Below are positions 2,099-8,532 of a stretch of DNA of 31,505 bases, one piece after another (position 1 is the stretch's first letter; the number at the start of each line of letters is the position of its first letter). The DNA comes from a virus. The notes under the pieces are model-generated. The model was not told the DNA's origin. It worked only from the letters and a program-made list of their open reading frames with translations, and did no database searches. The DNA is taken from IMG/VR virus record IMGVR_UViG_3300031951_000789, positions 1 through 31,505 of that record. One strand, given 5' to 3'. Both the position numbers and the translations under genes were made by a program.

Positions 2099-3108
2099 CA
2101 CCGCCCGCCGATGAACCCGAAGACATAAGTCTTCTACGCTCGGCTCTTAGAAGAACTCAAGTCCAACTCGCTCAAGCGAAAGAACGAAACGACCACCTCG
2201 TCGAAGTTACGAGGCAAGCCGCATTCGACGCTATGCTCTCACTAGGAGGCGTCCCCGTCACCGCTTCACCGAAGAAAGACGCGAGAAAGAAAGTCCGTCC
2301 CGAGGTCGCTCTCTGGGTTATGACTGACTGGCAAGGAGCGAAGAAGACGACCTCCTATAACTCGGAGGTAATGAGACAACGCGTTCTCCAGTTCGCGGAG
2401 AAAGCCGTTCATATTACCGAGCTTCACCGCTCGGCGCTTCCCGTCCGTAAATGCGTAATCGCTTTCGGCGGAGATATGATAGAGGGACTCTTCAACTTCC
2501 CGACTCAACCGTTCGAGATAGACGCGACGCTCTTCGAGCAATACGTCAACGTTTCGCGCCTAATGGTCGACGTCGTCCGAGTCGCTCTCGAGAACTTCGA
2601 AGAAGTCGAAGTCGTCGCAGAATGGGGAAATCACGGTCGCCTCGGCTCGAAGCGTGACGCCGTCCCGAGGTCGGACAATGCCGACCGAATGACTTACGAG
2701 CTCGCCCGTCAAATGCTCCGCGGAGAGAAACGCCTCAAGTGGGAAGACTCTCCCGAGGACGTTCAACGTATCGAAATCGGTAACTATCGCGCGCTCCTAC
2801 TTCACGGCGACGAGATAGGACGTAACGGGTTCGCCTCTCCTGCGGCTATCGTGCAACATATGAACCGCTGGCGCTCGGGAGCTTACCCGTGGGAGTTCCG
2901 CGACGTCTATATCGGTCACTATCACACACACGCCGAATGGGCTATGGCAAATGGTCTAGGAGCGGTCTACCAGACGGGCTCGACCGAGTCGGATAACCGT
3001 TACGCGGGAGTAATGCTCGCGGCAACCGCTATACCGTCTCAACGTCTACACTTTATCGACCCCGATAAAGGACGCGTAACTGCGGCGTATAAAGTCTGGC
3101 TGGACTAA
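2083..3108 (+). CDS. Calcineurin-like metallophosphoesterase
   Basis: A 341-residue protein with a GTG start. The metallophosphoesterase signature is complete in order: TDWQ (Asp82), GGDMIEG (Asp131), GNHG (Asn183, His184), LLHGD (His241) and GHYHTH (His279, His281). These residues hold a two-metal centre that hydrolyses phosphodiesters or phosphomonoesters. The first motif is normally D-x-H; here it is D-x-Q (Gln84). Residues 1-70 are a charged helical extension. Related phage proteins are usually thought to act on DNA, like the nuclease subunit SbcD/Mre11, but this one lacks the SbcD capping domain. Placement next to ssb and a HTH gene supports a DNA role; the substrate is unknown. Confidence 0.88.
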   Translation: MLEDLTPPADEPEDISLLRSALRRTQVQLAQAKERNDHLVEVTRQAAFDAMLSLGGVPVTASPKKDARKKVRPEVALWVMTDWQGAKKTTSYNSEVMRQRVLQFAEKAVHITELHRSALPVRKCVIAFGGDMIEGLFNFPTQPFEIDATLFEQYVNVSRLMVDVVRVALENFEEVEVVAEWGNHGRLGSKRDAVPRSDNADRMTYELARQMLRGEKRLKWEDSPEDVQRIEIGNYRALLLHGDEIGRNGFASPAAIVQHMNRWRSGAYPWEFRDVYIGHYHTHAEWAMANGLGAVYQTGSTESDNRYAGVMLAATAIPSQRLHFIDPDKGRVTAAYKVWLD

Positions 3109-3389
3109 TGAACTTCAATCCGCCAGAAGACCCTGCCTGTAAGCCCGACGACGCCGAGCTCTTCGATAACGAGTTCCTCTACGAAATGGCTCTCGGTATC
3201 TGTAAGGACTGCCCTATTCGCGCTTGGTGTCTCGAATGGGTAGACCCGAGTAATAGCTTCTTCGACGGAGTCGCGGGAGGTGTCGCTTGGAAAGAGGGTA
3301 GACCTCTTCCAGACTTTACTAATATTCGACGCGACGAAGTTCTAATCGCTTACCTCGGTCGCCGTCGTCAACTAAAGAAACTCAACTAA
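3108..3389 (+). CDS. WhiB-family iron-sulfur regulator
   Basis: A 93-residue protein with the four WhiB cysteines, C11, C32, C35 and C41 (CKDCPIRAWC), which ligate a [4Fe-4S] cluster. They are followed by the turn GVAGGVAW, where most relatives have GVWGG, and a basic C-terminal end (RRRQLKK) suited to DNA binding. WhiB proteins are confined to actinobacteria and their phages and act by binding region 4 of the primary sigma factor. This is the best host indicator in the window and a candidate controller of phage transcription. It starts at a TAATG overlap with the metallophosphoesterase gene. Confidence 0.92.
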   Translation: MNFNPPEDPACKPDDAELFDNEFLYEMALGICKDCPIRAWCLEWVDPSNSFFDGVAGGVAWKEGRPLPDFTNIRRDEVLIAYLGRRRQLKKLN

Positions 3390-6251: not shown

Positions 6252-6761
6252 ATGGCTTTACAAGTGAAACACGTCGCTATCTCGAAACTTTCGTCCGACC
6301 CGCTAAACGTTCGGACGCACGACGAGAAGAACCTCAACGCGATAAAGCGTTCTCTCGAACTCTTCGGTCAACGTAAGCCGATTGTCGTCGCTCGCGCGAA
6401 TGACGGAAGCCTCGTAGTCATCGCGGGGAACGGAACGCTCGAAGCGGCAAGGTCTCTCGGTTGGACGGAGATAGACGTTACCGAAGTTCCCGAAGATTGG
6501 GACGCGGAGCGAGCTCGCGCTTACGCTATCGCAGACAATCGGACGGCAGAACTCGCGGACTGGAATAAAGTCGAGCTCGCTTCGGCTCTTCTCGAACTTG
6601 ACGCCGTCGGGTTCGAACCCGCGGACTTAGGCTTCTCGGTCGCTCAAGCTTCCTCGGGAGACGTCGACGTTCCCGATGACTTCCCCGAGTTCGACGAGAA
6701 CTCTTCTACCTCTCACCAATGCCCTAAGTGCGGCTACGAATGGAACGGGTCGACGAAATGA
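6252..6761 (+). CDS. ParB-like domain protein with C-terminal Cys pair
   Basis: A 169-residue protein. Residues 5-110 match the ParB/Srx N-terminal nuclease-like fold: SKLSSDPLNVRTH, then SLELFGQRKPIVV, VIAGNGTLEAARSLGW and AYAIADNRTAELADW. The C-terminus ends with CPKCGYEW (C157, C160), half of a zinc ribbon. In phages such proteins are commonly encoded beside DNA methyltransferases and terminases and are thought to bind or nick DNA; ParB-fold proteins can also hydrolyse CTP. Its stop overlaps the CmoA-like start (ATGA), linking it to the modification pair. Confidence 0.85.
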   Translation: MALQVKHVAISKLSSDPLNVRTHDEKNLNAIKRSLELFGQRKPIVVARANDGSLVVIAGNGTLEAARSLGWTEIDVTEVPEDWDAERARAYAIADNRTAELADWNKVELASALLELDAVGFEPADLGFSVAQASSGDVDVPDDFPEFDENSSTSHQCPKCGYEWNGSTK

Positions 6762-7450
6762 AAGACGAGACTCTTCCTACTTCGTCGTGGAAGTTTGACG
6801 AAGCCGTAACCGAAGTCTTCGACGATATGCTCGAACGCTCTATCCCTGACTATGCGGGTATGCGGCGGACGACGACGGAGCTCGCGCTTCGGTTCGCTAA
6901 AGAGGGAACGGCTATTGTTGACCTCGGTTGTTCTCGCGGTAAAGCTCTTCGTCCGATTATCGACGCTCTCGGCGACTCGAACTCTTACGTCGGAGTCGAA
7001 ATCTCGAAGCCTATGGCTAACGCCGCACGGAAAGAGATACCCGAGGCGAAGATACTCGAGCTCGACTTACGCGACGAGTATCCGACCGCGTCCGCTTCGG
7101 TGACGCTCGCGGTATTGACGCTCCAATTTACGCCTATCGAATACAGACAGCGAATACTCGAGGACGCTTACTCTCGGACGGTATCGGGCGGAGTTATCCT
7201 CCTCGTCGAGAAGATACTCGGTTCAACTTCTTACAATGACCGACTTCTCGTCGAAACCTATTACGGGCGAAAGGGCGAGAACGGTTATACCGCCGAGCAG
7301 ATTACCGCGAAGCGTAGAAGCCTCGAGGGAGTTCTAGTTCCCGTAACCGCGAAATGGAACGAAGAGCTCCTAGAGTCCGCGGGTTTCCGTAACGTCGAGT
7401 GCTATTGGCGACACCTAAACTTTGCGGCGTGGCTAGGCGTGAAACCGTGA
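6758..7450 (+). CDS. cmoA: CmoA-like carboxy-SAM synthase
   Basis: A 230-residue class I SAM-fold protein resembling CmoA from end to end rather than a general methyltransferase. Conserved blocks: WKFDEAVTEVF (11-21), ERSIPDY (26-32; Tyr32 aligns with E. coli Tyr39), the SAM-binding DLGCSRG (55-61), TLQF (121-124), EK (151-152) and NGYTAEQITAKR (175-186), where Arg186 aligns with E. coli Arg199, the residue that binds the new carboxylate. CmoA converts SAM and prephenate to carboxy-SAM, releasing phenylpyruvate. In bacteria CmoB then uses carboxy-SAM on tRNA U34; no CmoB is present here. The next gene, overlapping by GTGA, is a DNA cytosine methyltransferase, so DNA is the likely target. Asn132 of the E. 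coli enzyme appears to be Val119 here. Start chosen at the ATGA overlap; an upstream GTG at 6728 is less likely. Confidence 0.88.
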   Translation: MKDETLPTSSWKFDEAVTEVFDDMLERSIPDYAGMRRTTTELALRFAKEGTAIVDLGCSRGKALRPIIDALGDSNSYVGVEISKPMANAARKEIPEAKILELDLRDEYPTASASVTLAVLTLQFTPIEYRQRILEDAYSRTVSGGVILLVEKILGSTSYNDRLLVETYYGRKGENGYTAEQITAKRRSLEGVLVPVTAKWNEELLESAGFRNVECYWRHLNFAAWLGVKP

Positions 7451-8532
7451 AACCTCCCTATTCTCTTCCGTCGATGAAAGACGTCGAAGCTATCCGCGGA
7501 ACTAACGGTCTAACTATGGTCTCGACTTTCTCGGGTTGCGGAGGCGCTTGCCTCGGTTATGAACTCTCGGGCTTCAATCTGCTATGGGCTAACGAGTTCG
7601 TCGAGGAAGCTCGCGAAACCTATAAAGCTAATCACCCGCACGTTATTCTTGACGGGCGCGACGTCCGTAAAGTTTCGGGCTCGGAGATACTCGACGCTAT
7701 CGGTCTCAAGCAAGGAGAGCTCGACTTACTCGAGGGCTCGCCTCCCTGCGCTTCATTCTCTCGCGCTGGCTCGAAAGAGAAAGGTTGGGGAGTAGTAAAG
7801 AAATACTCGGATACCGAGCAACGTTCGGACGACCTCTTCTACGAGTTCGCCCGTTTAGTCGAGGAGATACAACCTCGAGTCTTCGTTGCGGAGAACGTCG
7901 CGGGACTCGTTCAGGGTAAAGCTATCGGCTACTTCAAACTAATTCTTGCCGAGCTCAAGTCGAAAGGCTACGAGGTCTCCGCTAAAGTTCTCGAAGCTTC
8001 TTGGCTCGGCGTTCCGCAAGGACGCGCGCGTCTAATCTTTATCGGCGTTCGTAATGACCTCGTCGCTAAGGGTATCCGTCCCGCGTTCCCTAAACCTCTT
8101 CCTTATCGCTATTCAATCTCGGACGTCCTCGACTCCGTCTCTCCGACTTCTATCCCGAGCTTCGTTGACCCTGAAACGGGAGCTAACATCGGGCTCGACG
8201 GTCACGCCGTCGGAGTCGAATACGATAAGACTCCAATCGGCGGAAAGTCCGATAAATACTTCCAACTAATGAAACCTGCCCTCGATAAACCGAGCTTCAC
8301 GATTACGGCTACGGGTGGAACTATCGGTGCGGCGTCCGTAGTTCACCCGATACATAAGCGAAAGTTCAATCTCGAGGAACTTCGTATCCTCTCCTCTTTC
8401 CCCGCGGACTTCGTTCTAACGGGAAACTATAAACAACGTTACGAACGAATAGGTCGCTCCGTCCCGCCTCTAATGGCTCAAGCTATCGGCGACGTAATTC
8501 GAGACAAGATACTAAAGCCGAGCTATGCCTAA
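7447..8532 (+). CDS. DNA cytosine-C5 methyltransferase homologue, likely carboxymethyltransferase
   Basis: A 361-residue C5 DNA methyltransferase with all main motifs: I FSGCGG (28-33), IV SPPCASFS with nucleophile Cys101, VI ENV (149-151), VIII QGRAR (191-195), target-recognition segment about 205-300, and X RIGRSVPPLMAQAI. Motif X is nearly always GNxVP; here Asn is replaced by Arg337. That residue lies next to the SAM methyl site, so Arg could hold the carboxylate of carboxy-SAM made by the upstream gene. Predicted product: 5-carboxymethylcytosine in phage DNA. GTG start chosen from the GTGA overlap; ATG 7474 is an alternative. No restriction gene is adjacent. Its end overlaps terS by 8 bases. 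The methyltransferase family is certain; carboxymethyl transfer is inferred. Confidence 0.9.
   Translation: MKPPYSLPSMKDVEAIRGTNGLTMVSTFSGCGGACLGYELSGFNLLWANEFVEEARETYKANHPHVILDGRDVRKVSGSEILDAIGLKQGELDLLEGSPPCASFSRAGSKEKGWGVVKKYSDTEQRSDDLFYEFARLVEEIQPRVFVAENVAGLVQGKAIGYFKLILAELKSKGYEVSAKVLEASWLGVPQGRARLIFIGVRNDLVAKGIRPAFPKPLPYRYSISDVLDSVSPTSIPSFVDPETGANIGLDGHAVGVEYDKTPIGGKSDKYFQLMKPALDKPSFTITATGGTIGAASVVHPIHKRKFNLEELRILSSFPADFVLTGNYKQRYERIGRSVPPLMAQAIGDVIRDKILKPSYA

Follow-up and report, generated by a model that had tools for sequence, protein, structure and literature searches.

A predicted CmoA-CmoX DNA hypermodification cassette in a probable actinophage

We analyzed a 31,505-base IMG/VR record, classed as linear and hereafter called the window, which probably comes from an actinophage and very probably carries a DNA hypermodification cassette of two enzymes, with CmoA and CmoX giving 5-carboxymethylcytosine (5cxmC) as the likely final base. 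In the proposed mechanism, CmoA would convert SAM and prephenate to carboxy-SAM, the carboxylate of which would be bound by R337 of CmoX, an arginine replacing the motif-X asparagine. CmoX would then use C101 in a Cys-thiolate mechanism to transfer the whole carboxymethyl group to the cytosine C5 within a short DNA motif, yielding 5cxmC. With no CmoY amide ligase found in the window, 5cxmC would likely be the final, negatively charged mark, and this charge would help the DNA to escape some restriction enzymes. A ParB-like protein encoded upstream probably helps to target or regulate the transferase.

The CmoA and CmoX pair has been proven in the Synechococcus phage S-B43 (Yang et al., Nat Commun, 7 Dec 2025, PMC12783734), for which carboxy-SAM synthesis by CmoA was shown and 5cxmC, detected by LC-MS, was produced in vitro and, in a cmoA-dependent manner, in E. 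coli (PMC12783734). That study is the precedent for the activities of CmoA and CmoX, the role of the arginine, and HhaI resistance (PMC12783734); for the window, we infer the activity of both enzymes, the target motif, the end product, the role of the ParB-like protein, and the host. Natural DNA carboxymethylation is therefore not new, having been published in December 2025, and the window is a further member of that kind. The preliminary description of this DNA, made from the raw sequence alone, had proposed a putative natural DNA carboxymethylation system, which holds in substance but is not unprecedented (PMC12783734, December 2025). The mechanism at which this blind reading of the sequence arrived was proven as recently as December 2025, and we now see the system in a probable actinophage with a 31.5-kb record.

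Gene organization and enzyme residues

The cassette comprises three genes on the plus strand. The first (6252-6761) encodes a small ParB-like protein of 169 aa with a ParB_N domain (PF02195, 6.8e-5; phrog_620, 7.2e-35) and a C-terminal CPKCGYEWNG segment. The second, cmoA (6758-7450, ATG start, 230 aa), encodes a homologue of carboxy-S-adenosyl-L-methionine synthase matching TIGR00740 and 4gek, and the third, cmoX (7447-8532, GTG start, 361 aa), encodes a predicted DNA cytosine-C5 carboxymethyltransferase matching PF00145 and 8yf3_A. The cmoA and cmoX reading frames are both complete and overlap in the tetranucleotide GTGA (7447-7450), confirming the preliminary description of a complete CmoA-like gene and a complete C5-methyltransferase gene joined in this way; that description had the gene pair right but missed the upstream ParB-like gene (6252-6761) and the motif-X arginine. 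The end of the ParB-like gene and the start of cmoA overlap in ATGA, and in view of the two overlaps all three genes look translationally coupled, an arrangement that is repeated in relatives. The start calls for cmoA and cmoX are backed by relative G009, in which MKDE and MKPPY starts occur at the same places and the genes also overlap by four bases. The region is 100% identical in two other IMG/VR contigs, making an assembly error unlikely. A ParB-like gene adjoins CmoA/CmoX in nearly all relatives; it also occurs beside Asn-type methyltransferases without CmoA, which indicates that the ParB partner is not specific to carboxymethylation. The cassette is shared with G009 at 53-65%, whereas the terminase, portal and capsid of the window have no detectable match there, so the cassette itself moves.

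Downstream of the cassette lie genes for the terminase small subunit, the terminase large subunit (TerL), the portal, and the capsid. The two other IMG/VR contigs match the window at 100% identity over up to 18.5 kb. An IMG/VR contig, 3300042691_009339 (L003), starts one base from the window start, at window base 2, and is identical over 18.5 kb, so the left end of the window may correspond either to the actual end of the genome or to an assembly break common to both contigs; a terminal direct repeat was not found in the window. The presence of a WhiB-like gene (3108-3389), together with a TerL whose nearest matches are from Streptomyces phages (31%), suggests an actinobacterial host, and on these grounds the phage is probably an actinophage. 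Megablast revealed no near-identical phage in the annotated phage collection, and the search of cellular genomes yielded relatives at 34-40% only, too distant for a host assignment.

The window CmoA matches TIGR00740 with an E-value of 2.1e-41 and a score of 142.2 bits, below the curated cut-off of 193.3, and also matches phrog_4752 (9.3e-69) and E. coli CmoA 4gek (1.2e-27). The TIGR00740 cut-off was considered as an exclusion test and was dropped after calibration with the biochemically proven SpCmoA, which scores 115.6 bits, less than the window CmoA and also below 193.3; the cut-off thus suits only the cellular CmoA proteins, and phage members are not excluded by it. R186 of the window CmoA (codon CGT, 7313-7315, plus strand) aligns with E. 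coli CmoA R199, which forms a salt bridge to the carboxylate of carboxy-SAM (PMC3663124). This residue was also dropped as a diagnostic of CmoA, since the corresponding residue in the alignment of the proven SpCmoA is Glu, and the conservation of R186 would accordingly say little for a phage CmoA.

The C5-methyltransferase of the window matches PF00145 (8.5e-54) and aligns over its full length with PDB 8yf3_A (1.1e-65), the crystal structure with carboxy-SAM of SpCmoX, a proven DNA cytosine carboxymethyltransferase (8YF3; PMC12783734). In this alignment, the window enzyme keeps each of the nine SpCmoX residues published for cofactor binding and catalysis. The SPPC motif (residues 98-101; 7738-7749, plus strand), containing the catalytic Cys101, aligns with SpCmoX S95-C98, and F28, E50, F51, and D72 in the carboxy-SAM pocket correspond to SpCmoX F25, E47, F48, and D69. 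R337 (codon CGC, 8455-8457, plus strand), in the motif X sequence GRSV (IGRSVPP), occupies the position of SpCmoX R350 and M.HhaI N304; SpCmoX R350 is the carboxylate-binding residue (PMC12783734), and a carboxylate-binding role for R337 is supported by the alignment and by the association with CmoA described below. Wild-type SpCmoX used carboxy-SAM only and not SAM, and its R350N variant used neither cofactor (PMC12783734). A CmoA gene lies in the same genome neighbourhood, as the overlapping gene at 6758-7450, and the window enzyme has every sequence feature that defines CmoX. The homologous S-B43 pair and the CmoX residues together support the earlier proposal of carboxy-SAM-based carboxymethylation at the C5 of DNA cytosine. 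A single-sequence AlphaFold model of the window CmoX was discarded (mean pLDDT 32.6), and the structural argument is made by alignment to 8YF3.

Co-occurrence of CmoA with the motif-X arginine and a possible second partner of CmoA

The association between the motif-X residue and CmoA was assessed in 97 loci that carry a CmoX-like gene, drawn from IMG/VR and from annotated phages; this set includes overlapping fetches of the same contig. The motif-X residue was Arg in 88 of the 88 loci with CmoA nearby. The loci without CmoA had Asn (4), Leu (1), or Arg (4); three of the Arg loci (L045, L061, and L076) are cut at contig ends, and in the fourth, from an Erwinia phage (L167), CmoA is located about 17 kb away. 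Five cellular or MAG relatives with no CmoA on the stretch all carry Asn, with a ParB-like gene beside three of them. Leaving aside the Arg loci accounted for by contig ends or by distance, Asn or Leu is found in all 10 remaining CmoA-less relatives. In a maximum-likelihood tree built without the motif-X column, the Asn and Leu members from IMG/VR nest within the clade of Arg enzymes, and their occurrence coincides with the absence of CmoA. All four informative independent pairs agree, a number too small for significance (p = 0.125). The joint presence or absence of the motif-X Arg and CmoA provides a simple database rule for separating carboxymethyltransferases from methyltransferases.

At motif X, the CmoX-clade members of loci L038, L075, L077, and L079/L080 have Asn or Leu, and no CmoA is present on the stretch. 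They are candidate natural reversions to SAM-dependent methylation.

These results bear on the possibility that the window enzyme is an ordinary SAM-using 5-methylcytosine methyltransferase and CmoA an unrelated neighbour, serving for instance in tRNA cmo5U formation. The C5-methyltransferase fold would fit such an enzyme, the best-known role of CmoA is in tRNA modification, and E. coli CmoA alone can feed CmoX, so that linkage of the two genes is unnecessary for function. However, every CmoA-linked relative has Arg instead of Asn at motif X, the cmoA and cmoX genes overlap and are co-conserved, and SAM is not a usable cofactor for SpCmoX, which has the same Arg (PMC12783734). Moreover, neither a CmoB-like match nor tRNA or rRNA genes were found in the parts of the window searched, in agreement with the CmoB absence reported in the preliminary description. 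We consider an ordinary methyltransferase highly improbable and retain the CmoA-CmoX carboxymethylation cassette as the working explanation.

Loci fetched with the window CmoA included 71 without CmoX, of which 57 encode an upstream protein of about 505 residues. This protein belongs to phrog_5475, a family of no assigned function, and its model (pLDDT 78.5) shows a ParB-N fold (residues 1-94) and a class I SAM-methyltransferase fold (about 224-463). Among 86 phrog_5475 loci, which are mostly close relatives of one another, CmoA was found within 2.6 kb downstream in all 86 (for example, downstream of L108:7942-9456 on the plus strand, and in L255), and CmoX or CmoY in none. Divergent phrog_5475 members are Gordonia phage Evaa gp2 (L168), Pseudomonas phage SM1 gp52 (L169), and Aeromonas phage HJ05 gp2 (L170), and the CmoA homologues of these three phages match TIGR00740 at 1e-26 to 1e-35. 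The published survey began from CmoX homologues and reported no other transferase type (PMC12783734), and phage fusions of ParB-CTPase to SAM-methyltransferase domains have been described in general, without CmoA (PMC12704722). We propose phrog_5475 as a candidate second type of carboxy-SAM-dependent modification enzyme, the acceptor of which could be DNA or RNA.

The end product and restriction avoidance

In the published system, CmoY ligates glycine to the carboxylate of 5cxmC, and S-B43 virion DNA showed the glycyl form only (PMC12783734). Three diverse CmoY proteins used as tblastn queries gave no match in the window, which also has no match to PF00733, the only ligase family profiled; the contig is linear, and a ligase could lie outside it. 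PF00733/CmoY was also not found in the two window-identical contigs or in the six nearest relatives (G003-G007 and G010; 64-67% CmoX identity), a set that includes short fragments as well as one relative of 31 kb (G006). CmoY is present in G008/G009 (60% CmoX identity), between ParB and CmoA, and its distribution on the tree requires 13 gains or losses among the Arg members, which indicates that CmoY is an optional module. Its absence from the window and the nearest relatives points to free 5cxmC as the likely end product, and we predict this base for the window phage, unlike the glycyl form of S-B43.

The same cassette could instead produce 5cxmC as a mere intermediate, with the carboxylate conjugated by an unrecognised ligase, a host ligase, or the product of a gene outside the contig. 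This outcome would be consistent with the exclusively glycylated virion DNA of S-B43 (PMC12783734), with CmoY in neighbours as close as G008/G009 (60% CmoX identity), with a linear and possibly incomplete contig, and with the many window ORFs that have no assigned family. It is opposed by the failure to find an Asn_synthase homologue in the window, the two identical contigs, and the six nearest relatives, by the lack of any window match in tblastn with the three CmoY proteins, and by S-CRM01, whose CmoA-CmoX pair is also without an adjacent CmoY. We therefore regard the intermediate role as rather unlikely, and free 5cxmC as the probable end product. Virion DNA from this ligase-less clade would show directly whether free 5cxmC occurs in nature. 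A broader proposal, which we make tentatively and with slightly less than even confidence, is that in this clade 5cxmC would be the finished base, free and charged in virions, and that phage CmoA would be a hub feeding interchangeable transferases, either CmoX, as in the window, or phrog_5475 in other phages, which would be a second kind.

The influence of restriction was assessed by comparing word counts with Markov expectation over the window (1-31505). Several restriction-type words are nearly or fully absent (observed vs expected: CCGG, 1 vs 148; TTAA, 0 vs 117; GATC, 0 vs 72; GGCC, 0 vs 57; CATG, 0 vs 18; TGCA, 1 vs 31; GTAC, 6 vs 87), whereas GCGC, CGCG, AGCT, TCGA, ACGT, and CTAG are near expectation. 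Counted on both strands of the window, CCWGG (0 of 50 expected), GAWTC (0 of 92), and GCWGC (0 of 67) are missing, and GGWCC is also nearly purged. The avoided word sets differ between relatives, including close ones with similar CmoX; for this reason word avoidance ruled out no target cleanly and was dropped for predicting the CmoX motif. The target of SpCmoX is GC, and the motif of other members was left open in that study (PMC12783734). Among GC-containing words, GGCC, TGCA, and GCWGC are avoided in the window and GCGC, AGCT, and CGCG are kept. Such avoidance would not be expected with protection at every GC, and it implies that the window CmoX does not modify every GC, that the enzymes concerned are not blocked, or that the avoidance predates the cassette. 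The preliminary description had suggested that the modified base blocks host restriction enzymes; this is plausible, given that 5cxmC blocked HhaI (PMC12783734), but can be only part of the story in a genome from which many sites have been purged. These phages probably face strong restriction pressure that is met largely by losing sites, with modification as at most one layer.

The avoidance of many restriction-type words, as if the genome were unprotected, might also mean that the cassette is a remnant or inactive. Against this, the catalytic and cofactor residues are all intact, the frames are open and tightly coupled, and the cassette is identical in two other contigs and conserved across the clade; we give very little weight to a remnant and maintain that the cassette is probably functional.

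Two further compositional features were observed in the window. AAAA/TTTT, which is not a palindrome, is absent (0 vs about 128 expected, both strands), although AAA is frequent and AAAA occurs at the expected level in relatives. CA/TG dinucleotides are at 0.49 of expectation and CG at 1.56, as in the relative L084 but not in G009.

Comparison with known systems

The published survey lists 5,615 candidate CmoX sequences from IMG/VR and other sets, many beside a ParBc protein (PMC12783734), and the window CmoX is possibly among them. The S-B43 and window systems share CmoA and CmoX in clustered genes, and the SPPC motif, the residues of the cofactor pocket, and the Arg of motif X are conserved between them; ParB neighbours have been reported for many homologues. 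They differ in the ParB gene upstream of the pair in the window, in CmoY, which is present in S-B43 and was not found in the window, in sequence (about 38% identity for CmoX and about 28% for CmoA), in host (cyanobacterial for S-B43 and probably actinobacterial for the window), and in size (a genome of 214 kb vs a record of 31.5 kb).

The closest cultured CmoX, with 49% identity to that of the window, is from Streptomyces phage TurkishDelight (genes 122-125; L163), which has a similar CmoX target-recognition segment and a ParB neighbour. In contrast to the window, its genes are ordered ParB-CmoX-glutamine-amidotransferase-type ligase-CmoA, and a ligase is thus present. Synechococcus phage S-CRM01 (SCRM01_149c-148c; L166) resembles the window in its CmoA-CmoX pair, the 4-base overlap, and the lack of an adjacent CmoY; however, it is a large T4-like cyanophage, and ParB was not found beside the pair. 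The engineered M.MpeI N374K is a C5-methyltransferase that can use carboxy-SAM owing to a basic residue at this position of motif X (as described in PMC12783734), but this is a laboratory mutant with a CG target, whereas the Arg of the window is natural. Finally, the E. coli CmoA-CmoB system for tRNA wobble-U modification has the carboxy-SAM synthase family in common with the window, where, unlike in E. coli, CmoB and tRNA genes were not found and the predicted acceptor is a DNA cytosine.
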